Positions 8,099-30,127 of a stretch of DNA of 64,000 nucleotides are shown here, one piece after another (position 1 is the stretch's first letter; the number at the start of each line of letters is the position of its first letter). The notes below the pieces were generated by a model. It saw nothing but the letters and a program-made list of their open reading frames with translations. It was not told the origin of the DNA and made no database searches. A program made the translations under genes and the position numbers. Source of the stretch: Marinifilaceae bacterium (GTDB lineage Bacteria > Bacteroidota > Bacteroidia > Bacteroidales > Marinifilaceae); the NCBI GenBank assembly GCA_025210485.1, contig JAOARN010000153.1:1-64000 (forward strand). The letters are read 5' to 3'.

Positions 8099-8977
8099 AT
8101 GAGTCTGAGATATTACAAGAACATAAATTCATCTGAGTTGATAGAGGAGAAAACTCCTAGTCTTAAGCTACTTAAATGTTTGTATAATACTAATATTGGA
8201 CGTATTGGTTTATGGGCACTATTTAAGAGAAAGTTTTTATCAGGACTATCAGGATTATATATGAATACAAGATTTTCAAAATCAATGATTGAAAATTTTA
8301 TTGCAGATAATCAGATTGATATAAATGAATATAAAAAAACAGTTCCTGATTTTGATTGTTTTAATGACTTTTTTTACAGAAAAATACATGAGGATGCTAG
8401 AGAAATTCAAGAAGGTTTTGTATCTCCAGCAGATGGAAGAGTTTTGGCATTTGAGCAAATAAAAAAAGCTGATAATTTTTTTGTGAAAGGTTCGTCATTT
8501 AGTTTGAAATCATATTTAAAGGATGAAGAATTAGCTAAGAAGTATATAGATGGTGCTATGCTAATTGTTCGGTTGGCTCCAGCAGATTATCATAGATTTC
8601 ATTTTCCATGTGATGGTTCAATAGGAAAAACAAATAACATAAAAGGATATTATTATTCTGTTTCGCCTTATGCATTGCAACATAATACTAGGATATTTCT
8701 TGAAAACAAGAGAGAGTTTAGTATTTTAAAATCCGAAAAATATGGAGATGTTCTTTATTCAGAGGTTGGTGCAACCATGGTAGGTAGTATTATACAGACT
8801 TATAGCCCTGATTCTCATATAAAGAAAGGGCAAGAGAAAGGTTATTTTGCTTTTGGAGGCTCTACACTTATTTTGTTTTTTGAAAAAGGGAAAATAAAAT
8901 TTCATAAAAATTTAATTGAGAATACTCAAAATTCATATGAAACCTATGTAAAAATGGGGGAAATGATAGCTGAGTAA
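8099..8977 (+). CDS. psd: phosphatidylserine decarboxylase proenzyme
   Basis: It converts phosphatidylserine to phosphatidylethanolamine at the membrane. The precursor cuts itself to create a pyruvoyl cofactor. In this 292-residue protein the cleavage site is GGST (between G254 and S255, where the classical motif is LGST), near the C-terminus. The other members of the autocatalytic triad are D112 (SPADGRV) and H165/H168 (YHRFHFP). Length and motif spacing match the longer bacterial PSD type, not the roughly 215-residue form common in other Bacteroidota. The phosphatidylserine synthase gene is not nearby. The gene stands alone between the receptor and pheT. Confidence 0.94.
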   Translation: MSLRYYKNINSSELIEEKTPSLKLLKCLYNTNIGRIGLWALFKRKFLSGLSGLYMNTRFSKSMIENFIADNQIDINEYKKTVPDFDCFNDFFYRKIHEDAREIQEGFVSPADGRVLAFEQIKKADNFFVKGSSFSLKSYLKDEELAKKYIDGAMLIVRLAPADYHRFHFPCDGSIGKTNNIKGYYYSVSPYALQHNTRIFLENKREFSILKSEKYGDVLYSEVGATMVGSIIQTYSPDSHIKKGQEKGYFAFGGSTLILFFEKGKIKFHKNLIENTQNSYETYVKMGEMIAE

Positions 8978-9090
8978 ATCAAAAATTCTATCATTAGAAG
9001 AATAAGTTTATTTATTGTTATTGTAAATGAAAAAATAATGGACTTTTACTTTTATAAATATGAAAGCTTGTAACTACAACTCTCAATGAA

Positions 9091-9120
9091 TTGATTAATA
9101 AATAAAATTAATTACTTTTG
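9091..9120 (+). promoter_or_regulatory. promoter of pheT
   Basis: TTG (9091-9093), 19 bases, then TACTTTTG (9113-9120). This is a near-ideal Bacteroidota housekeeping promoter. Transcription would start near 9126 and leave a leader of about 130 bases before the pheT ATG. Confidence 0.65.
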
Positions 9121-9142
9121 TTCACACGATAGTTTAAATTTA

Positions 9143-9180
9143 AAGATGGATATTTTATCATTGTTTTAAATATCAATCTT
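9143..9180 (+). promoter_or_regulatory. leader hairpin upstream of pheT
   Basis: Arms 9143-9155 and 9168-9180 pair over 13 positions with one G-A mismatch and a 12-base loop, inside the predicted pheT leader. A smaller palindrome (TATATTAGAATATA) follows. No T-run follows, so it is not an obvious attenuator terminator. Its role is unknown. Confidence 0.4.
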
Positions 9181-9255
9181 TATATTAGAATATAAGAAAA
9201 AACAGGCGGTTAAGTCGTACTGACGAATTGTTTTATATAAAAAAATACCCATAGA

Positions 9256-11703
9256 ATGAAAATATCATACTCGTGGCTTAAAGAATACATCGATATTGAT
9301 TTGTCTGATAGTGAATTAGACGAAATATTAACCCAGATAGGACTTGAAGTTGGTGGAATTGAAAAGTTTGAATCTGTGAAAGGCGGTCTTGAAGGATTAG
9401 TAATAGGTGAGGTTAAAACTTGTGAACCACATCCAAATTCAGATCATTTAAGCATGACTACTGTAGATGTAGGCGGTGAAGAATTATTGCCAATAGTTTG
9501 TGGAGCACCTAATGTTGCTCAGGGACAAAAAGTTGTAGTTGCAACGGTAGGAACTGTGTTGTATGATGGAGATGATAGTTTTAAGATAAAAAAATCTAAA
9601 ATTAGAGGTGAGCAATCAATGGGAATGATTTGTGCCGAAGATGAAATAGGTCTAGGGGCAAGTCATGATGGAATTATGGTTCTTCCTTCAGATGCTCCTG
9701 TCGGAATAGCTGCTAAAGAGTATTTTGATATTGAAACAGATAAGGTAATTGAAATCGACTTAACACCAAATAGAGTAGATGGTTCATCTCATATTGGTGT
9801 GGCTCGTGATCTTGCTGCTTATTTCAAACAAAAACAAGAAATTGAATATACAAAACCTTCTGTAGAAGAATTTAAAGCTGAGAATTCAAATTTATCTATA
9901 GATATTAAGATAGATAAGCCAGAGGCATGTAAGAGATACTCTGGATTATGTATCGAAGGTGTAGAAGTTAAAGAATCGCCTGAATGGATACAAAATAGAT
10001 TAAAAGCAATAGGTTTAAACCCAATCAACAATATTGTTGATATCACCAATTATGTTCTTTTCGAAACTGGACAACCACTTCATGCTTTTGATTATGATAA
10101 GATTGAGTCAAAGCAAGTAGTTGTTAAGACCTTAGAAAAAGACACTAAATTTGTGAGTCTTGATAATGAGGAAAGAAGTCTTCATGAAAATGATTTGATG
10201 ATTTGTGATAAAAATACGCCAATGTGTATTGCTGGTGTATTTGGTGGTTCAGAATCAGGTGTTAGCAATAACACGAAGAATATATTCCTAGAAAGTGCAT
10301 ATTTTGATTCTGTTTTCGTTAGAAAAACAGCAAGAAGATTCGGTTTAAATACAGATGCATCGTTTAGATTTGAAAGAGGAACTGATCCTAATAATACTGT
10401 ATATGCTTTAAAAAGAGCTGCTTTATTAATTAAGGAAATTGCTGGAGGTACTATTTCTTCTGAAATTACAGACATATATCCTGAAGCAATTAAAGATTTC
10501 GAAATTGAAGTTAGTGTTGACAGAATCGAAAGGCTTTTAGGTAAGAAAATTGGCAAGGAGACTATAGTAAAAATTCTTACGGCTCTTGAGATAAAAGTTG
10601 CTGAAGATAATGGAGATGTTTTACTTCTTAATGTACCTCCTTATAGAGTTGATGTTCAGCGAGAAGCTGACATTGCTGAAGATATTCTTCGAATTTATGG
10701 CTTCAATAATATTGAAGTGTCAGAGAAATTGTCATCTTGTATAAGCTCACAACATAAGCCAGATGAGTTTCAATTGAAAAATATGGTGGCTGATATGTTG
10801 ACCAGTAATGGTTTTAATGAAATCATGAACAACTCTTTAACTAGAGCTAGATATTGTGAAGGATTAGAGACTTATAAGTCTGATAATAATGTAATGATAA
10901 ATAATCCATTGAGTTCTGATTTGAATGCGATGAGACAGACATTGTTATTCGGAGGTTTGGAGTCGATTAGTTATAATATAAATCGAAAAAATCCAAATTT
11001 GAAATTCTATGAATTTGGTAAGTCTTATCAGTATTTCAAAAAGGAGGAGAATCAAAATCCTGTAGATAATTATCATGAAACAGAATTATTTTCTATCTTC
11101 ATCTCAGGGAATATTAATAATCAAACCTGGAATTCTCCAGAAACTCCATCAAATTTCTTTTATTTGAAATCATATGTAGAGATGGTTCTTTCAAGACTTG
11201 GTGTGATGACTAAGATTAAGATTAAAGAATTTGATTCAGATGTATTCATTGAAGGTCTAGAGTATTCAACAAGAAAAAACACAATGGTGAAAATGGGTCT
11301 TGTTGAACCAAGTATATTAAAGGGTTTTGATATTGATACGCCTGTTTATTATGCTGAGTTTTACTGGGAAGCAATAATGAAAGAACATAAAAATTCAAAG
11401 ATAGAGTATAAGGATATTTCTAAATATCCTGCAGTAAAGAGAGATTTGTCTTTATTGGTGGATAAGTCTGTTAAGTTTTCTCAAATAAAAGAGATTGCAA
11501 ATAATTCAGAAAGAAAACTTCTTAAATCTGTAGATATCTTTGATGTTTATGAAGGAGAAAATTTAGGAGAAAATAAAAAATCATATGCTGTTAGTTTTAT
11601 TATTCAGGATGAAGAAAAAACATTGAAGGATAAGCAGATTGATAAGATAATGCAAAAAATAATATCTAGTTTAGAAAAACAATTGTCGGCTCAAATTAGA
11701 TAA
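9256..11703 (+). CDS. pheT: phenylalanine--tRNA ligase beta subunit
   Basis: PheT pairs with PheS as an alpha2-beta2 enzyme that charges tRNA-Phe; the beta subunit carries tRNA binding and editing. The 815-residue length is typical. Domains in order: an N-terminal EMAP-type tRNA-binding domain (about 40-155; GEVKTCEPHPNSDHL), the B3/4 editing domain (about 210-390; GQPLHAFDYDKI, FRFERGTDPNN), B5 (about 410-480), the catalytic-like core, and a C-terminal ferredoxin-fold anticodon-binding domain (about 720-815; YPAVKRDLSLLVD). pheS is not adjacent, which is common in Bacteroidota. It is followed by a strong terminator and is probably transcribed alone from the promoter at 9091. Confidence 0.97.
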   Translation: MKISYSWLKEYIDIDLSDSELDEILTQIGLEVGGIEKFESVKGGLEGLVIGEVKTCEPHPNSDHLSMTTVDVGGEELLPIVCGAPNVAQGQKVVVATVGTVLYDGDDSFKIKKSKIRGEQSMGMICAEDEIGLGASHDGIMVLPSDAPVGIAAKEYFDIETDKVIEIDLTPNRVDGSSHIGVARDLAAYFKQKQEIEYTKPSVEEFKAENSNLSIDIKIDKPEACKRYSGLCIEGVEVKESPEWIQNRLKAIGLNPINNIVDITNYVLFETGQPLHAFDYDKIESKQVVVKTLEKDTKFVSLDNEERSLHENDLMICDKNTPMCIAGVFGGSESGVSNNTKNIFLESAYFDSVFVRKTARRFGLNTDASFRFERGTDPNNTVYALKRAALLIKEIAGGTISSEITDIYPEAIKDFEIEVSVDRIERLLGKKIGKETIVKILTALEIKVAEDNGDVLLLNVPPYRVDVQREADIAEDILRIYGFNNIEVSEKLSSCISSQHKPDEFQLKNMVADMLTSNGFNEIMNNSLTRARYCEGLETYKSDNNVMINNPLSSDLNAMRQTLLFGGLESISYNINRKNPNLKFYEFGKSYQYFKKEENQNPVDNYHETELFSIFISGNINNQTWNSPETPSNFFYLKSYVEMVLSRLGVMTKIKIKEFDSDVFIEGLEYSTRKNTMVKMGLVEPSILKGFDIDTPVYYAEFYWEAIMKEHKNSKIEYKDISKYPAVKRDLSLLVDKSVKFSQIKEIANNSERKLLKSVDIFDVYEGENLGENKKSYAVSFIIQDEEKTLKDKQIDKIMQKIISSLEKQLSAQIR

Positions 11704-21757: not shown

Positions 21758-22240
21758 TTATTTATCAGCGTATTCTTTAAGAATATCGGCAACATCTCCA
21801 GCAGCAACGCGACCATAGGTTTTTTCTCCAATGGTAACTACAGGAGCCAAACCACATGCACCTACGCATCGAAGGCAGGAGATAGAGAATTTACCATCCT
21901 CTGTAGTTTCTCCAACAGGAACATCAAGTTGTCTTTTGAACTCTTCTAAAACTTTTTCAGCACCTCTTACATAGCATGCGGTACCCATACATATAGAGAT
22001 AGGGAATTCGCCTTTAGGCACCATTGAAAAGAAAGAGTAAAATGTCACAACTCCATATACATGAGCTACAGAAACGTTTAATTCGCGTGCAATGATTTCT
22101 TGCACTTCAGCAGGAAGATAACCAAAATTTTCCTGAGCTTTATGTAATACATTGATCAGCTCGCTGCCTTTATTGTCAAATGATTTACAAATTTCAACAA
22201 GTTTATCAATTTTATCTTTTGCTAATTTGATTTTAGCCAT
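21758..22240 (-). CDS. hydC: NADH-dependent [FeFe] hydrogenase gamma subunit, NuoE-like
   Basis: This 160-residue thioredoxin-fold subunit carries one [2Fe-2S] cluster and joins HydB in accepting electrons from NADH. Cluster ligands are visible as C84-x4-C89 and C125-x3-C129, with an extra C122. The N-terminal helical part (about 1-75; ENFGYLPAEVQEIIA, VYGVVTFYSFF) is the normal NuoE bundle. It is the last gene of the operon, 54 bases after hydA. The gene order hydB-hydA-hydC matches bifurcating hydrogenases in general content, so I assign it as HydC and not as a respiratory complex I subunit. No other nuo gene is near. Confidence 0.93.
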   Translation of the reverse strand: MAKIKLAKDKIDKLVEICKSFDNKGSELINVLHKAQENFGYLPAEVQEIIARELNVSVAHVYGVVTFYSFFSMVPKGEFPISICMGTACYVRGAEKVLEEFKRQLDVPVGETTEDGKFSISCLRCVGACGLAPVVTIGEKTYGRVAAGDVADILKEYADK

Positions 22241-22294: not shown

Positions 22295-24070
22295 TTATTC
22301 TTCAATCTCGATTTCATTACTCTTGTCGAAGTAATGAGTATGCAATAATTTATGAGATAATTCTCCACATGGTTTTCCTAAAAACTCTTCATATAGTTTT
22401 ATAATTGAAGGATTTTCATGTGATTTTCTGATAGTTTTACCTGCATCCTCACGATATAGGGCTTCTGAACGTTTTTTCAAAATTGATGAATCGCCATGGT
22501 GTAATGGCTGACCACCACCACCGATACATCCTCCAGGGCAGGCCATGATTTCTATAGCATGGAATTGTGATTTTCCTTCACGAATTTCTTCTAATAGTTT
22601 ACGAGCATTACCCAACCCGTGAGCAATACCAATATTGATAGGTAGCCCATCAAAATCAACCGTTGCGCTACGTATGCCTTCCATTCCTCGTAGTTCATTG
22701 AAGTCAACTTTTTCAAGACTCTTACCAGTATGAACTTCGTATGCTGTACGTGCTGCAGCTTCAATTACACCACCAGTAGTTCCAAAAATTACAGCAGCAC
22801 CTGTAGACTCACCAAGAGGATTGTCAAACTCTTCATCAGGCATAGTATTCAAGTCCATATTGGATTCCTTGATAAGATTAGCCAATTCACGAGTTGATAT
22901 AGAGTAATTTACATCAGGATCACCGTCAACTTTGAATTCGTCACGCTGACATTCGTATTTTTTAGCTAGACAAGGCATTATTGATACCACAATTAGATCT
23001 TCTCGTTTGATGCCCATTTTCTTAGCAAAATAATTCTTAGCAATAGGACCAAACATCTGTTGAGGAGAACGTGATGTTGATGGAATATCTTTTAAATCAG
23101 GGAAATGATGCTCGAAGAAATTAACCCATCCTGGGCAACAAGAAGTAAGAATTGGTAATTTAACATCTTTGTCACCATCCAAATGCTTTTTCAAACGATC
23201 AAGAAGTTCCGTGCCTTCTTCCATGATTGTAAGGTCGGCAGCAAAATCAGTATCAAAAACTTTATCGAAACCTAATGAACGAAGTGCAGACACCATTTTA
23301 CCAGTAACTAAAGTACCTGCCTCCATACCAAACTCTTCTCCCAAAGCAGCACGAACTGCTGGAGCAGTCTGTACAACTACAGTTTTGTTTGGATTTGCTA
23401 AGTCACGAATAAGTTTATTTGTATGATTAACCTCTGTTAATGCTCCAGTAGGACATACAGCAACACACTGTCCGCAATATGTACAAGTAGATTTTTCAAG
23501 ATCCATCTCAAAAGCAGGCGCTACAACAGATTCGAAGCCTCGGTTTACAGCTGAAAGAGCACCAACAGATTGTACCTCATTACACATAGTTTCACATCGA
23601 CGACACATTATACACTTATCCATATCACGGATAATTGATGGAGAGCGGTCAACTTTGTATTTTGATTGTTCCCCTTTATAATGAATTTCGCGAACACCAA
23701 ATTGGTGAGCCATAGTTTGTAAATCGCAATTACCAGATTTAGCACAAACTAAACAATCAGCAGGGTGATCAGAAAGCATTAACTCCATAACAGTTTTACG
23801 AGCATTTAAAACTCGCATATTATGGGTGTTGATAATCATTCCTTCTTCACATTTGCTATTACATGAAGGAGCTAAATTTCTTCTACCTTCTACCTCTACT
23901 ACACAAATTCTGCAACCACCAGGATTGTGTTCAATTCCCATGTCGTCTAGTTTTAAGTGACATAGGGTAGGAATATCAATTCCTAAAGTTTTAGCAGCCT
24001 CAAGTATTGTAGTTCCTACAGGTACTTCAATTGGCTTATTATCAATGGTTAATTTTATCATTTTTTCCAT
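22295..24070 (-). CDS. hydA: [FeFe] hydrogenase catalytic subunit
   Basis: It catalyses reversible H2 formation at the H-cluster. The 591 residues carry a [2Fe-2S] domain (C37, C53, C56, C70), a His-ligated [4Fe-4S] (H102, C106, C109, C115) and two ferredoxin-type [4Fe-4S] clusters (C153/156/159/163 and C196/199/202/206). All three H-cluster motifs follow: TSCCPGW (C311, C312), MPCLAKKYE (C367) and ACPGGCIGG (C511, C515). The proton-transfer cysteine C311 is present, so the site looks fully active. It starts 14 bases after the hydB stop. With HydB and HydC it should form an electron-bifurcating complex using NADH plus reduced ferredoxin. Maturases HydE/F/G must be elsewhere. Confidence 0.97.
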   Translation of the reverse strand: MEKMIKLTIDNKPIEVPVGTTILEAAKTLGIDIPTLCHLKLDDMGIEHNPGGCRICVVEVEGRRNLAPSCNSKCEEGMIINTHNMRVLNARKTVMELMLSDHPADCLVCAKSGNCDLQTMAHQFGVREIHYKGEQSKYKVDRSPSIIRDMDKCIMCRRCETMCNEVQSVGALSAVNRGFESVVAPAFEMDLEKSTCTYCGQCVAVCPTGALTEVNHTNKLIRDLANPNKTVVVQTAPAVRAALGEEFGMEAGTLVTGKMVSALRSLGFDKVFDTDFAADLTIMEEGTELLDRLKKHLDGDKDVKLPILTSCCPGWVNFFEHHFPDLKDIPSTSRSPQQMFGPIAKNYFAKKMGIKREDLIVVSIMPCLAKKYECQRDEFKVDGDPDVNYSISTRELANLIKESNMDLNTMPDEEFDNPLGESTGAAVIFGTTGGVIEAAARTAYEVHTGKSLEKVDFNELRGMEGIRSATVDFDGLPINIGIAHGLGNARKLLEEIREGKSQFHAIEIMACPGGCIGGGGQPLHHGDSSILKKRSEALYREDAGKTIRKSHENPSIIKLYEEFLGKPCGELSHKLLHTHYFDKSNEIEIEE

Positions 24071-24084
24071 TATACTTTTCCTCC

Positions 24085-25878
24085 TTATTGAATGCTAATA
24101 GCATTAAACTTACATTTGTCCATACAAGCACCACATTTGATACATTTTTCGGTATCGATAACATGAGCTTCTTTGCGTTCTCCTGAAATACAATCAACAG
24201 GACAGTTGCGAGCACAAAGTGTACAACCAACACAAAGCTCAGGGTCAACAACATACTGCATTAGTGCTTTACATTGACCCGAAGGGCATTTCTTGTCTTG
24301 TACGTGAGCTAGGTATTCGTCATAGAAGTTCTCTAATGTTGATAATACAGGGTTTGGAGAAGTTTGTCCAAGTCCACAAAGAGAAGTATCTTTAATAACA
24401 TTACTTAGGTTACGAAGAAGATCTAAATCTTCTATTGTTCCTTTTCCTTCTGTGATTTTGTCAAGTAATTCGTATAATCTCTTATTACCTACACGACAAG
24501 GAGTACACTTACCGCAAGATTCTTCTACTGTAAAATCAAGGTAGAATTTCGAAACAGATACCATACAATCGTCTTCATCCATTACTATCATTCCTCCTGA
24601 TCCCATCATAGAACCAACAGCAAGAAGATTGTCAAAGTCAATAGGAGTATCGAGGTGTTTTTCGGTTAGACAACCTCCCGAAGGACCACCTGTTTGAACA
24701 GCTTTGAATTTTTTTCCATCTTTGATACCACCGCCAATTTCGTAGATTACTTCGCGAAGGGTAGTTCCCATTGGAACTTCGATAAGTCCAACATTATTTA
24801 TTTTTCCAGCTAATGCAAATACTTTAGTACCTTTTGATTTGTCAGTACCAATTTTATTAAACCAATTGGCACCTTTGTTGATAATAACAGGGATGTTGGC
24901 AAAGGTTTCAACATTATTTACATTTGTAGGTTTACCATTATATCCTGATTCCGCAGGGAATGGAGGTTTTACAGTAGGTTCGCCTCTAAGTCCTTCCATA
25001 GAATGGATAAGAGCTGTTTCTTCACCGCATACAAATGCACCAGCACCGTAGCGTAATTCTATGTCAAAATTGAAACCAGTACCCATGATATCCTTACCAA
25101 GTAGACCATACTCACGAGCTTGACCAATAGCAATTTTTAGACGTTCGATAGCAAGAGGGTACTCTGCACGAATGTATACAACACCTTGATCGGCACCAAT
25201 ACAGTAAGCATTAATAGCCATAGCTTCAATAACTGAGTGAGGATCACCTTCAAGAATAGATCTGTCCATGAATGCCCCAGGGTCACCCTCGTCGGCATTA
25301 CAAACTACATATTTTTGATCAGCTTTGTTTGCAGCGGCAAATCTCCATTTAAGACCGGTAGGGAAACCACCTCCTCCTCGGCCTCTCAGACCCGAATCAA
25401 TCATTTCCTGAATTACAGCTTCAGGAGTTGATTCAGTTAAGCATTTACCTAGTGCAGCATATCCATCACGACCTATGTACTCATCAATATTTTCAGGATT
25501 TATAAAACCGCAGTTTCTAAGAGCAATACGAATTTGCTTTTTGTAGAATCCCATATGCTTTGAGTCGCTAACAGTTTCTTTTTTGTCAGGATCAACATAA
25601 AGTAATCTCATTACTTTACGCCCTTTAATAATATGTTCTTCGACCAGCTCTTCAGCATCGGAAGGTTTTACTTCAACATAGAATGTATTGTCAGGCAACA
25701 TTTTTACAATAGGGCCTTTTTCACAAAATCCAAAACATCCTGTAGCCACAACTTGAACTTCATCTTCAAGTCCTTTGGCTTTTAATGCATCTTGTAGGTT
25801 TGCAAGTATAGCTTTACTTTCAGAAGCATGGCAACCTGTACCACCACAAATAAGAATATGCATTTTATATTTTTCCAT
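24085..25878 (-). CDS. hydB: NADH-dependent [FeFe] hydrogenase beta subunit, NuoF-like
   Basis: The flavin and NADH-binding subunit. The 597 residues have an N-terminal thioredoxin-like [2Fe-2S] domain (C11, C16, C48, C52), the glycine-rich GRGGGGFPTG loop (166-175) for FMN/NADH, an SLBB-type segment, and the [4Fe-4S] site C455-x2-C458-x2-C461 with C501. A C-terminal pair of ferredoxin clusters (C549/552/555/559 and C579/582/585/589) completes it. The extra N- and C-terminal domains distinguish HydB of bifurcating hydrogenases from plain NuoF. It is flanked by the 2Fe-2S gene (14 bases upstream) and hydA (14 bases downstream), so expression should be coordinated. Confidence 0.96.
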   Translation of the reverse strand: MEKYKMHILICGGTGCHASESKAILANLQDALKAKGLEDEVQVVATGCFGFCEKGPIVKMLPDNTFYVEVKPSDAEELVEEHIIKGRKVMRLLYVDPDKKETVSDSKHMGFYKKQIRIALRNCGFINPENIDEYIGRDGYAALGKCLTESTPEAVIQEMIDSGLRGRGGGGFPTGLKWRFAAANKADQKYVVCNADEGDPGAFMDRSILEGDPHSVIEAMAINAYCIGADQGVVYIRAEYPLAIERLKIAIGQAREYGLLGKDIMGTGFNFDIELRYGAGAFVCGEETALIHSMEGLRGEPTVKPPFPAESGYNGKPTNVNNVETFANIPVIINKGANWFNKIGTDKSKGTKVFALAGKINNVGLIEVPMGTTLREVIYEIGGGIKDGKKFKAVQTGGPSGGCLTEKHLDTPIDFDNLLAVGSMMGSGGMIVMDEDDCMVSVSKFYLDFTVEESCGKCTPCRVGNKRLYELLDKITEGKGTIEDLDLLRNLSNVIKDTSLCGLGQTSPNPVLSTLENFYDEYLAHVQDKKCPSGQCKALMQYVVDPELCVGCTLCARNCPVDCISGERKEAHVIDTEKCIKCGACMDKCKFNAISIQ

Positions 25879-25892
25879 AATCGCAATCTAGT

Positions 25893-26291
25893 TTATTCGT
25901 TGTCTATAGTTTTGTAGTTTACAGGTATAATACCGTCTACTAATTCTCCTGTTTTGATATATTTTTCGATAATTTCGTCAGCTTTTTTAATATTTACATT
26001 TCCAAAAACCACAGGATCTTTTCCAGGTAGACATACCTCTATAGTTGGTTCTGCATAGCAATATCCCATGCATCCCGTTTGTGTTACAATAGTTTCAATA
26101 TTTCTTTTGGCAGATTCCGCCACCAAGAAATCCATAACTTCTTTTGCACCAGATGCAATACCACATGTAGCCATTGCAACTTTTATTTGTACAAGATTTT
26201 CAGGATTGTCGCTTTTCTCCCTCAAATCGATTTTGCTCTGAAGCTCTTCTTTCATTTTCTTCAGATCAGCAAGGGATTTTACTTTTGCCAT
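25893..26291 (-). CDS. small thioredoxin-like [2Fe-2S] ferredoxin of the hydrogenase operon
   Basis: A 132-residue protein with an N-terminal helical stretch rich in Lys/Glu and a NuoE C-terminal-like fold. Visible cysteines are C43 (MATCGIASGA) and C74/C78 (TGCMGYC). The second Cys of the usual first C-x4-C pair is replaced by Gly, so only three of the four canonical ligands are obvious. To my knowledge this reduced pattern recurs in the small subunit encoded beside clostridial HydB, but I could not check it. It probably shuttles electrons within or to the hydrogenase complex. It lies directly before hydB, 14 bases apart. Confidence 0.8.
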   Translation of the reverse strand: MAKVKSLADLKKMKEELQSKIDLREKSDNPENLVQIKVAMATCGIASGAKEVMDFLVAESAKRNIETIVTQTGCMGYCYAEPTIEVCLPGKDPVVFGNVNIKKADEIIEKYIKTGELVDGIIPVNYKTIDNE

Positions 26292-26323: not shown

Positions 26324-26863
26324 CTATTCTAATTCGTTCAGATTCTCTTGAATCATTTCTTTTAAATAAGTGATGATATTAGGATCCGAAATAGAAACGC
26401 CCCCCAATACATCTTTTACTTCTATAGTATTAAAAATATATTCTCCTTTATTGGTTTTGTGTTTGTAGATAAAATCTAATTCGGGGTTAGCTCCTGCCAT
26501 TAGAGCTACCGTAGAACTTATATCTCCTAGTATTGGTCTGTCGATATGTTTATGACTAAATACAGCTTTGAGTTTTGTTCCTTTGTTTTTTTCTGATTTT
26601 ATTTCAAGATAACCATTAGTAAGCTCTGCATTTTGTTTTAGGAGTGAGATTCCTAGCCCTACCTTTCTGGTTGTTCTACTTGTGAAAAAAGGATCCATTA
26701 CTTTATTTAGGTCATTAGCATCTATACCATAACCATCATCCTCAATAAATATTTCAAATATATCTTCTAGTTTATCTTCGCATATAAAAATTTTAATCAA
26801 ACTTGATTTAGCTCGAATAGAGTTTTGGACTATGTCCATTATATGCATTGATAAATCTTTCAT
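26324..26863 (-). CDS. GHKL ATP-binding protein, histidine-kinase-like ATPase domain
   Basis: A 179-residue stand-alone ATPase domain: the N-box around N14 (IVQNSIRAKS), G1 box D43-G-Y-G, and G2 box KVGLGISLLK (67-76), preceded by the F-box PFFTS. No dimerisation histidine domain, membrane segment or sensor domain is attached. It could phosphorylate a partner protein or bind it in an ATP-dependent way, as anti-sigma factors do. The last 60 residues are unlike typical kinases (LMAGANPELDF). It sits between the PHP gene and the 2Fe-2S gene in the operon. Confidence 0.82.
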   Translation of the reverse strand: MKDLSMHIMDIVQNSIRAKSSLIKIFICEDKLEDIFEIFIEDDGYGIDANDLNKVMDPFFTSRTTRKVGLGISLLKQNAELTNGYLEIKSEKNKGTKLKAVFSHKHIDRPILGDISSTVALMAGANPELDFIYKHKTNKGEYIFNTIEVKDVLGGVSISDPNIITYLKEMIQENLNELE

Positions 26864-26882: not shown

Positions 26883-27608
26883 TTAACAAAATACTTTTTT
26901 CTCTGAAATTGCTCTTTTAAACGATTTGAAATCTAATTGCTCCATCTCTATTTGGCTTGAGCATTTGCCGATATCTTCAATATAATGCGCATCTGAATTT
27001 TTCAGAAAACAGTAATTCTTTAGGTATTCGTTATCTTTCAAAAAAACCTCTTTGCTAGTATGAACCGATAGTCCTAAGGCATCAAGTTTTAGATCTTTAG
27101 GAACAAATCCTAACTGGCTTTTAATGCTGTTTCTACTTTTGTCAATATGAGCAGCAATAAATAATCCACCTAGGCTATGTACCTTTTCTTCAATTTCTTC
27201 AATACTTTTGTTTATGGCAGTAATAAGCAGATGATCTATTTCATGAATTATTTCCTCTCTTCTGTTTACAACTACCTGATATCCAAATTTATTTGGGTTG
27301 TTTCTTATTTTTGTAATATTGTTGTCTATAAATTCTTGAAAATCAATACAGTCTTCATTTTTTTCAAAAAAGCAGAGACAATGCGCTTCTTCTTTTGTTG
27401 TAACTTCTACTCCTTTGAGTGCTAAAATCCCTTCCTCTTTAGCCAATTCACTTGTGATATTGGTGTGAAGAGTTGAATTATGATCAGTTATTCCAATTAT
27501 ATTAAGTTTTTGTTTCTTAGCTTGTTTTACAATATTTATAGGACTCATCTCAAGATCACCACAAGGGGATAGAACTGTGTGTATGTGTATATCTGCATTG
27601 TAAATCAT
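26883..27608 (-). CDS. PHP domain phosphoesterase
   Basis: A 241-residue PHP-fold metal-dependent protein. Metal-site residues: H8 and H10 (DIHIHT), D42-H43 (ITDHNS), E68 (GVEVT), H154 (AAHIDKS), and D206/H208 (NSDAH). This complete set suggests an active phosphoesterase related to TrpH/YciV-type enzymes. The substrate is unknown. Its position in the hydrogenase operon between a DRTGG gene and a HATPase gene suggests a regulatory or nucleotide-turnover role; that is inference from context. Confidence 0.85.
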   Translation of the reverse strand: MIYNADIHIHTVLSPCGDLEMSPINIVKQAKKQKLNIIGITDHNSTLHTNITSELAKEEGILALKGVEVTTKEEAHCLCFFEKNEDCIDFQEFIDNNITKIRNNPNKFGYQVVVNRREEIIHEIDHLLITAINKSIEEIEEKVHSLGGLFIAAHIDKSRNSIKSQLGFVPKDLKLDALGLSVHTSKEVFLKDNEYLKNYCFLKNSDAHYIEDIGKCSSQIEMEQLDFKSFKRAISEKKVFC

Positions 27609-27637: not shown

Positions 27638-27976
27638 CTATTGCTCTTTTAATAGTTCGTAAAGTTTACCAGTCAATTCGAAAGCTTCAAGTGTGCTTGA
27701 AAGAATAGGTATACCTTCAATATTACTTTGTTCTAAAGTATCCTTATCTGGTTTGTATCCTTTGACTAGCACAATTGCTGCAAGCTCTTTCAGTGCAGCA
27801 ACTGCCATAGTGTTTTTGTGAGTTTGTAGTGTAATCCAGACATGATTATCATCGGCATTTCCCATTACATCACTTAAAAGGTCTGATGTATATCCGCCTT
27901 CTATTTCTTTGTCAAGGCCTTGCTCTCCGCTACAGATTTCTAAATTTAGTTTTTCTGCAATATCTTTAACTTTCAT
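27638..27976 (-). CDS. DRTGG domain protein (second copy in the operon)
   Basis: A 112-residue single-domain protein. The segment GGYTSDLLSDVMGNA and the following VWITLQTH pattern match the DRTGG domain, otherwise found attached to CBS-type pyrophosphatases and phosphotransacetylases, where it may bind nucleotides. It is a paralogue of the operon's first gene (shared DL-x-SDV). There are no catalytic residues. It is encoded between the hydrogenase-like Fe-S gene and the PHP gene with about 20-30 bases on each side. Confidence 0.8.
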   Translation of the reverse strand: MKVKDIAEKLNLEICSGEQGLDKEIEGGYTSDLLSDVMGNADDNHVWITLQTHKNTMAVAALKELAAIVLVKGYKPDKDTLEQSNIEGIPILSSTLEAFELTGKLYELLKEQ

Positions 27977-27996
27977 AATATATATATTATAGCTTG

Positions 27997-29367
27997 TTAC
28001 TTATATTCGTTTTTGTCAAATCTATTTTTCCCCCAGGTTTGTTCAGAGATTTCAAATGATTCTTTTGGGGAAATAAGACCTTCTTTAGTCAATAATTTCT
28101 GCATAAATACGCATTGGTTCATTTTAGCTTGTCCCTGCACTATATCCGTAGCCAAGGCCTGACATCTAGGAGCTCCACAGGCTCCACAATCTATTCCTGG
28201 TAATACTTTCATGATGCGGTTTATCTTCTGCATCTTTGACATAGCCACCATTATATCTTTATCCAGACTAATAATCGAACGAGGTTCTATCTTCCCAATA
28301 TTGATATTTTGTATTAGATATGATTCATGTTTGTTGATTTCCTGAGAGGACTTATTATGTATATTTGGCTTATTGTTTTTTGCTAGATTTCGAAGTTTTT
28401 CAATAGCTAAAAATCTATTTTCTGTAACTAGAACTCCTCCAGTGCAACTATTATCGCAGGCTCTGAGTTCCAAAAAATCGACCTCTGTAAGTTCTTCATC
28501 TTCTAGTTTTTCAAGAACTTCAATTACATTATGTATTTCGTCTATGGCAAGACATCTACCATCGTATTGATTAGCTTCGCCTCCAGTTAGAGTCCATTCT
28601 ATTGATTTTTTTTGTAATATATTAGGTTCTTCAATAAGTTTGTGATCTAGCTTGTTGTTTTTTATATTCAGTAGAACTTTATTGTAAATGAAGTCCATGT
28701 TGATCACGCCATCTATAAATGTTTTTTCATCTCCGACAGGACTTTTTATTGCTGCTATTTTAGCTGCGCATGGTGTTATATAAAATATTCCTATATCATC
28801 TGCTTGTGTATTTTTGTCTTGTAATTTTTCACGACAATACATGGCTGTTATATCTATAACTTGTTTAAGATGAATTATATTTGAAACCAAAGCAGGGAAT
28901 TTCACTTGTATTAAGCGCACTATTGCAGGGCAAAAACCAGAGATAAAAGGTTTATCCTGATGGTTTTTATGCATATATTCTTTAGTTTGATTTACAAGTA
29001 TAGGAACAGTTTCGTCCACTTCTTGGATATGAGTAAAACCTAGCTGTTTGATGACAGCATATATTTGAGCTATACTTACATCTTCGGGAAATTGAGACAG
29101 CAGAACTGTGGGAATTAACGCTACTCGGTTTTTGAATTTAAAAATTTTAGAAAAATCGTCTTGTTCTACAATAATAGCATTGACAGGGCAAGTTTTTAAA
29201 CATTCCCCACAATCAACACATGCATTATTATCAATCTGTGCTGTTCCGTCTTTCACACGAATAGCCGCAGTTGGGCATATGTTCATACAATGTGTGCATC
29301 CGATGCAAACATGTTTGACAACTTTTAGCGCGTGATAAAATTGGACCTGCTCCATAGTATTATGCAA
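27997..29367 (-). CDS. [FeFe]-hydrogenase-like Fe-S protein with C-terminal FeS domain (putative sensor)
   Basis: A 456-residue relative of the hydrogenase large subunit, probably not a normal enzyme. It has two ferredoxin [4Fe-4S] clusters (C21/24/27/31 and C50/53/56/60) and a hydrogenase-like core. All four cubane ligands are retained (C146 in GFCP, C200 in TPC, C304 and C308 in ACDNSC), but Phe145 replaces the proton-transfer cysteine and the third motif is altered. A C-terminal RnfB-type FeS motif follows (C394, C397, C402, C419). Clostridial 'sensory' hydrogenases resemble this. The start overlaps the upstream HATPase stop by 8 bases (ATG 29367); M5 is an alternative. Redox or H2 sensing is inferred. 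Confidence 0.85.
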   Translation of the reverse strand: MHNTMEQVQFYHALKVVKHVCIGCTHCMNICPTAAIRVKDGTAQIDNNACVDCGECLKTCPVNAIIVEQDDFSKIFKFKNRVALIPTVLLSQFPEDVSIAQIYAVIKQLGFTHIQEVDETVPILVNQTKEYMHKNHQDKPFISGFCPAIVRLIQVKFPALVSNIIHLKQVIDITAMYCREKLQDKNTQADDIGIFYITPCAAKIAAIKSPVGDEKTFIDGVINMDFIYNKVLLNIKNNKLDHKLIEEPNILQKKSIEWTLTGGEANQYDGRCLAIDEIHNVIEVLEKLEDEELTEVDFLELRACDNSCTGGVLVTENRFLAIEKLRNLAKNNKPNIHNKSSQEINKHESYLIQNINIGKIEPRSIISLDKDIMVAMSKMQKINRIMKVLPGIDCGACGAPRCQALATDIVQGQAKMNQCVFMQKLLTKEGLISPKESFEISEQTWGKNRFDKNEYK

Positions 29368-29773
29368 AATAGTTGATTATCTCAAGTTCGGTTCCAATAT
29401 CTACTTGGGATTTAATGTTTAACTTATCTGTGTTTCTTTTTATATTCGGAAGTCCCATTCCAGCCCCAAAGCCCATCTCTCTTACTTTTTTTGATGCAGT
29501 AGAATATCCTTCTTGCATTGCCATTTCGATATTGGGAATTCCAGGTCCTTTATCAATAATATTAACATGAATTTTTTCAGTTGTAATTCCGACCTTCATA
29601 ATGCCATTATATGCATGTGCTACTACATTGACTTCGGCCTCATATAATGAAACCACGGTACGTTTAATTATTTTACTGTCAACGTTTAGTTGTTTTAGTA
29701 TTTTCTTTACTTCACTAGAGGCTGTTCCTGCTTTAGAAAAGTTACCTCCTTCTATTTCAAATTCGAAATCCAT
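29360..29773 (-). CDS. anti-sigma-factor-like GHKL ATPase
   Basis: A 137-residue single-domain ATPase of the RsbW/SpoIIAB type: N-box E45-x3-N49 (EAEVNVVAHA), G1 box D74-K-G-P-G (DKGPGI) and a glycine-rich G2 loop 101-108 (GFGAGMGL) followed by PNIKR. It has no other domain. Such proteins can be protein serine kinases or ATP-dependent binders. The 8-base overlap with the hydrogenase-like gene implies translational coupling, so the two products probably act together. There is no sigma factor or anti-anti-sigma gene in the operon. Confidence 0.85.
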   Translation of the reverse strand: MDFEFEIEGGNFSKAGTASSEVKKILKQLNVDSKIIKRTVVSLYEAEVNVVAHAYNGIMKVGITTEKIHVNIIDKGPGIPNIEMAMQEGYSTASKKVREMGFGAGMGLPNIKRNTDKLNIKSQVDIGTELEIINYFA

Positions 29774-29779
29774 TTCAGT

Positions 29780-30127
29780 TTAGTATACTGGTTTTAAACC
29801 CAATTCATGCAATAAATAACAAGCACGAAACATAGAATGACTACATTCTATTAGGGTAATATTGTTTTCTTTAGCTAAATCAATCATTGCAGAGTTTGCC
29901 TTTTTGTTGCGCACAAAAAGTATATATGACACATCCGACATTTCTGATGTGCGTATAGTTTGGAGATTGTTTAAACCTGTAATTAACAGAAGATCTTCTG
30001 TGTCTAATGTCAGTACATCACTCATAAGATCTGATGCAAATCCTGATAATAATTCTTTACTTTGGTTTTCATCTCCGCAAATGATTTTAGCATTTAGCTT
30101 TTTCACTATATCTGCTACTTTTACCAT
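29780..30127 (-). CDS. DRTGG domain protein (first gene of the hydrogenase operon)
   Basis: A 115-residue DRTGG-type protein, paralogous to the copy at 27638. It has LLSGFASDLMSDVL followed by an alternating beta-strand and helix pattern (YILFVRNKK, NITLIECSHSM). It is the promoter-proximal gene of the ten-gene operon and lies 6 bases before the HATPase gene. A ligand-binding regulatory domain is the best guess; the ligand is unknown. The leader upstream is nearly 700 bases from the next gene. Confidence 0.8.
   Translation of the reverse strand: MVKVADIVKKLNAKIICGDENQSKELLSGFASDLMSDVLTLDTEDLLLITGLNNLQTIRTSEMSDVSYILFVRNKKANSAMIDLAKENNITLIECSHSMFRACYLLHELGLKPVY

Follow-up and report, generated by a model that had tools for sequence, protein, structure and literature searches.

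The window, which is the whole stretch of 64,000 nucleotides analysed from a Marinifilaceae bacterium (contig JAOARN010000153.1), carries an operon on its minus strand in the order D1, K1, HydS, D2, PHP, K2, [2Fe-2S] protein, HydB, HydA and HydC, with gaps of 4 to 54 bases. The genes and the main features of HydS are given below. Residues are counted from TTG 29367, the ORF start used in the original prediction. Neighbour counts were taken from 80 loci of a genome collection, with only those contigs included that were long enough.

29780..30127, minus strand: D1, DRTGG-domain protein (PF07085), first gene of the module, 75 of 75 loci
29360..29773, minus strand: K1, stand-alone GHKL ATPase of the SpoIIAB/RsbW-like serine kinase type, next gene upstream of HydS at 78 of 78 loci
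27997..29355, minus strand: HydS, group D (M2e)-type [FeFe] hydrogenase-like protein, 452 amino acids from ATG 29355
28933..28935, minus strand: Phe145 of HydS, at the site of Cys299 of CpI and Ala137 of TamHydS
28444..28932, minus strand: H-domain span of the cubane ligands C146, C200, C304 and C308, invariant in 130 of 130 relatives
28468..28587, minus strand: relay equivalents T261 (S249 of TamHydS), E264 (E252), D276 (D265) and E300 (E289) (PMC10407848)
28111..28188, minus strand: C-terminal Cx2Cx4Cx16C [4Fe-4S] domain with C394, C397, C402 and C419 (PF04060)
27638..27976, minus strand: D2, second DRTGG-type protein, 74 of 77 loci
26883..27608, minus strand: PHP-family metallophosphoesterase with conserved metal ligands, 66 of 67 loci
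26324..26863, minus strand: K2, second stand-alone GHKL ATPase, 56 of 60 loci
25893..26291, minus strand: [2Fe-2S] thioredoxin-like ferredoxin (NF041612, below its cut-off)
24085..25878, minus strand: HydB, NuoF-like flavoprotein, by profile matches
22295..24070, minus strand: HydA, group A [FeFe] hydrogenase with Cys299 retained (TSCCPGW; NF040763, 902.9 bits, over cut-off)
21758..22240, minus strand: HydC, NuoE-like, by profile matches

The two GHKL ATPases of the window (26324-26863 and 29360-29773) are different stand-alone proteins, neither with a histidine phosphotransfer domain, and the two paralogous DRTGG proteins of the same operon share an SDLxSDV motif. Promoter-like and terminator-like sites did not exceed shuffled sequence (41 against 41.2 and 5 against 4.3, respectively). 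Relatives of HydS were encoded on at least 580 stretches of the genome collection. HydS was present in 36 of 60 near relatives and in 129 of 392 Bacteroidales genomes, and its nearest named relatives belong to the Marinifilaceae (Labilibaculum, Marinifilum, Ancylomarina). The five-gene module D1-K1-HydS-D2-PHP was also found on a clostridial plasmid record from Subdoligranulum, where the identity of HydS was 33%. The electron-bifurcating BfuABC family comprises FeFe-, NiFe- and Fdh-types (PMC9304861). HydBC-type cores as in this family are the usual gene neighbours of the putative HydS sensor. The enzyme does not include the sensor module, and no such module is described in the BfuABC paper with regard to HydS, sensing or regulation (PMC9304861). 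A literature search for DRTGG or anti-sigma genes together with [FeFe] hydrogenases gave nothing relevant.

The HydS ORF is intact. ATG 29355 is probably its start rather than the listed TTG 29367, because the relatives begin at the corresponding MEQ or MEK; the true residue numbers would then be four lower (F141 etc.). Translation of 29367-27997 (minus strand) showed two CxxCxxCxxxC clusters at the N-terminus, C21-C60. Pfam matches were obtained to Fe_hyd_lg_C (3.4e-23), to the FeS domain PF04060 (7.7e-13) and to an N-terminal 4Fe-4S dicluster domain (about 1e-8). The original prediction had named the four cubane cysteines, Phe145 in place of the proton-transfer cysteine (Cys299 in CpI numbering), a third motif ACDNSC and a C-terminal FeS domain spanning C394-C419, and the same translation confirmed every one of these residues and their numbers. 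Across 141 sequences, 59 of the 452 positions were at least 97% invariant, all 16 cluster cysteines among them. Modelling against a CpI-type hydrogenase had been proposed as a check. The AlphaFold2 model (pLDDT 87.4, pTM 0.87) aligned to CbA5H, HydABC and CpI with Z values of 25-28 over about 350 residues, and the predicted fold is that of an H-domain.

To our knowledge, a sensory role has been proven for no group D enzyme. Group D (M2e) proteins resemble those of group C but have no PAS domain; Cys299 is missing along with almost the whole group A proton path, Ser or Thr stands in place of Met353, and a C-terminal Cx2Cx4Cx16C cluster is present (PMC8163306, PMC10407848, PMC13104023). HydS has an H-domain with four cubane cysteines, a replaced Cys299, T198 at the position of Met353 (129 of 130 relatives), equivalents of E252, E289, S249 and D265, and the C-terminal Cx2Cx4Cx16C motif. 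The PAS domain that group C carries after the FeS domain was not matched in HydS by Pfam, and the protein ends about 37 residues past C419. In place of the TSCCP and ACPGGC motifs of group A, GFCP and ACDNSC were found, with a score of 66 bits against a cut-off of 406. A 45-row maximum-likelihood tree, in which long outgroup branches leave the exact root unsure, placed HydS in the group D clade with support of 100/98, apart from the group A, B and C proteins of its own genome. These sequence marks place the window protein with TamHydS among the "putative sensory" [FeFe] hydrogenases of group D (M2e).

TamHydS, the group D enzyme from Thermoanaerobacter mathranii, resembles HydS in domain order, absence of a PAS domain, the Cx2Cx4Cx16C motif, a hydroxyl residue at Met353, absence of Cys299, the glutamate relay residues and an adjoining gene for a histidine-kinase-like ATPase. 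With residues matched through the published numbering and a clostridial group D relative (Subdoligranulum), not through the TamHydS sequence itself, HydS differs in having Phe and not Ala at 299 and Arg (Arg302) and not Leu at Met497. The module around HydS is a further difference: it encodes a pair of DRTGG proteins, one PHP protein and a pair of GHKL ATPases. Two group C (M2f) proteins, TmHydS from Thermotoga and RaHydS from Ruminococcus albus, are likewise putative sensory proteins that combine an H-domain with ferredoxin and C-terminal FeS domains, but unlike HydS they carry a PAS domain. TmHydS, matched through the published numbering and the R. albus relative, has Ala at the position of Phe145 and Ser at that of Arg302. 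The RaHydS gene is followed by a SpoIIE-type phosphatase, unlike the group D module, and conservation of E264 does not extend to the group C rows. For HfsB, a group C protein of thermophilic clostridia, genetic work backs a role in regulation (PMC5707799); no comparable genetic support was found in the literature for group D.

No residue of [FeFe] hydrogenases has been studied more than the one at position 145, where Phe occurs here as a natural variant. TamHydS has Ala there (PMC10407848), and sensory sequences at large have Ala in about 43%, Cys in 17%, Pro in 10% and Ser in 10% (PMC10055695). Among 130 relatives of HydS, Phe was observed in 121, Ser in four, Tyr in four and Ala in one, the last being the clostridial row. 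The cysteine is indeed absent, but to call it "lost", as was done originally, is misleading, since the conserved Phe speaks against local decay. The missing Cys299 is evidently a group D trait and not a residue lost by the window protein. Phe at this position is a lineage-specific feature of a group D member that is ordinary as a single protein.

H2 turnover without the cysteine, though slow, is known from both TamHydS and TmHydS (PMC8163306, PMC10055695), and for TamHydS a relay E252-E289-S249-D265 has been proposed in place of the Cys299 path (PMC10407848). The equivalents of this relay are present in HydS (E264, E300, T261 and D276), so proton transfer would not necessarily be lost. They are also well conserved in the relatives: E264 and D276 in 128 of 130 each, E300 in 130 of 130, and Thr or Ser at 261 in 128 of 130. 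Lys203, the equivalent of the CN-binding K358 of CpI, is kept in HydS and in 128 of 130 relatives; in two Bacteroidales HydS proteins (L041 and L138) Gln was found at this position (PCAAQ). HydE, HydF and HydG are encoded in the same genome, along with five further H-domain proteins, and HydF was over its cut-off in 101 of the 116 HydS-bearing genomes tested. Because of the maturases, the kept Lys203 and relay, and the HydF count, a complete H-cluster with slow turnover is the likeliest content predicted for HydS. By analogy with TamHydS and TmHydS, turnover should be slow.

K1/D1 is the best candidate output of HydS, because K1 is always adjacent, its ATP site is near-invariant, D1 and K1 can be fused, and K1 is more conserved than HydS. 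The ATP site residues E45, N49, D74, G76, G78 and G103-G107 were near-invariant over 140 sequences, as expected for a GHKL ATPase. D1 and K1 form one protein in two genomes, and the median identity to the window was 0.66 for K1 and 0.52 for HydS. Among solved structures, only SpoIIAB proteins were found as relatives of K1. The E45-x3-N49 box, the DxGxG motif and the glycine-rich lid motif are those of the SpoIIAB/RsbW anti-sigma serine kinases, whereas the score of K1 against the anti-sigma F model lies below the cut-off (56.5 versus 135 bits). No STAS or sigma partner was found next to K1.

Taken together, HydS is probably a group D sensor with a complete H-cluster, slow turnover and a glutamate relay, signalling via K1 and D1. 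Its H-cluster would most likely be built by HydE, HydF and HydG of the same genome. Protons would reach the cofactor through E264-E300-T261-D276 and not through Cys299, while Phe145 would fill the place of the cysteine and keep the site hydrophobic. The state of the H-domain could be set by H2, or by the redox state of ferredoxin via the N-terminal clusters, and could be read out by the adjoining SpoIIAB-like kinase K1 jointly with D1. Expression or activity of hydrogen metabolism would be adjusted as a result, that of the adjacent hydBAC first. An H2 or redox sensor with low turnover had already been suggested in the original prediction and is still the best-supported reading; the reason is membership of group D and not a loss of catalytic residues by this protein. 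Several points count against it, among them the absence of a STAS or sigma partner beside K1. Next to the ADT amine, Phe takes up more room than Ala; a related branch does without maturases, so that the module would not be strictly H-cluster-dependent; and, with no sensory role proven in group D, the redox state of the C-terminal cluster of TamHydS is unchanged by H2 (PMC13104023). Biochemical knowledge of group D comes from one clostridial enzyme, and the conserved module now names candidate partners, the SpoIIAB-like kinase and the DRTGG protein. The interest lies in the module more than in the single protein, and most of all in a branch that apparently has no H2 chemistry.

This branch consists of six sequences (genomes G231, G726, G729, G239, G395 and G462) that formed one clade in the 45-row tree (99/98). 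The four cubane cysteines, E300, Phe145 and the C-terminal cysteines are kept, whereas the equivalents of E264, D276 and T261 and the second cysteine of the first N-terminal cluster (C24) are lost in all six. Downstream of the module in G231, G726, G729 and G239 lie hydC, a [2Fe-2S] gene, hydB and the gene for an HdrA-like protein with a NuoG-type N-terminus (loci L238, L285, L286, L239, L287 and L288 are of this type). MvhD-, MvhG/VhuG- and VhuA-like [NiFe] hydrogenase subunits come next in G231 and G239; MvhD was seen in G726, the remainder lying beyond the stretch read. In G395 and G462, hydC and hydB precede genes for a molybdopterin protein with a NuoG-type N-terminus and for NfnAB-like proteins. 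The DRTGG-SpoIIAB-like kinase fusion of these two genomes (272-279 amino acids; loci L255, L256, L290 and L291) adjoins this hydCB-molybdopterin-NfnAB-like operon. HydF was absent from all 15 genomes of the G231 family and HydG from G231 and G239, and no other H-domain protein was found in G231, G726 and G729. G239 has one HydA elsewhere, and G395 and G462 have maturases; the only clean case of life without [FeFe] maturation is therefore the G231 family. The relay was lost in one clade and hence in one event, which is suggestive and no statistical proof. The sister branch seems to have abandoned H2 chemistry but preserved the fold along with the signalling operon, and [4Fe-4S] clusters alone are a credible content for its HydS, with the G231 family as the clean case. 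It offers a natural test of whether sensing needs the H-cluster.

For the window protein itself, the original prediction had offered as an alternative a protein with only a [4Fe-4S] cluster. HydS would then have no [2Fe] subsite and would sense the redox state of the cell, not H2. The relay and C24 losses of the sister branch, its [NiFe] or molybdopterin bifurcating operons, the absence of HydF from the G231 family and that of other H-domain proteins from three genomes point in this direction, as do Phe145 and Arg302, which differ from Ala and Leu in TamHydS and from Ala and Ser in TmHydS. However, relay residues (at least 128 of 130) and Lys203 are retained in the window protein and in its relatives within Bacteroidales, most of the HydS-bearing genomes tested have HydF, and the window's own genome has all three maturases. 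This alternative is thus not favoured here, and we consider it unlikely.

A wider explanation, offered only tentatively, casts the module as a regulator of bifurcating (HydBC-type) complexes in general, able to work with or without the [2Fe] half of the H-cluster. With an [FeFe] partner it would keep an H-cluster and read H2; with a [NiFe] or molybdopterin partner it would hold the cubane only and read the redox state, in some lineages after loss of the maturases. If true, a hydrogenase fold has been turned into a plain iron-sulfur sensor with an otherwise unchanged signalling operon.

HydS could also belong to the adjacent HydABC complex as a subunit for slow catalysis or electron transfer, and be no sensor. 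It is true that hydB lies downstream in 46 of 51 loci and that the ferredoxin clusters of HydS resemble those of a redox subunit, but a plasmid record of Parabacteroides distasonis has the module without hydABC beside it, K1 and not hydABC is the constant neighbour, and we know of no HydS subunit in the solved HydABC complexes. This role is quite improbable. Decay to a gene without function, to which low scores on the group A and B models and the missing catalytic cysteine might point, is contradicted by the intact ORF, by the conserved positions and cluster cysteines and by the occurrence of HydS in a third of the Bacteroidales genomes, and can practically be dismissed.

Two further lines were given up. 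HydF was not over its cut-off in 15 of the 116 HydS genomes (two of the 15 outside Bacteroidales), which was considered as a sign of HydS with cubane only in Bacteroidales. Two of the 15 have HydG and most hold a normal HydA; unbinned or unrecognised maturases are likelier, and these genomes were not used as evidence. Neither HydF nor HydG was found in 11 Bacteroidales genomes that are 93-100% complete and have other [FeFe] hydrogenase genes (G373, G379, G398, G419, G428, G511, G578, G596, G616, G649 and G038), perhaps because their maturases are unbinned or divergent; this concerns every one of the three genomes tested from family f149 and both from f23. G036, with HydS as its sole H-domain protein and HydF and HydG kept, was considered as proof that HydS needs maturation. 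This was dropped because HydS lies 1 kb from the contig end and hydABC may simply be missing.

In the window's own genome, a gene for a SpoIIE-type phosphatase comes after each of the two group C HydS genes. A kinase on the group D side and a phosphatase on the group C side would, as a hypothesis, fit two arms of one partner switch. The pairs lie on C61 (L052:9978-11705 and 8781-9959) and C34 (L053:6830-8686 and 8673-9860). At position 299, one of the two group C-type HydS proteins retains Cys and the other carries Lys; the latter has neither the second cysteine of its first ferredoxin motif nor the CN-binding Lys.
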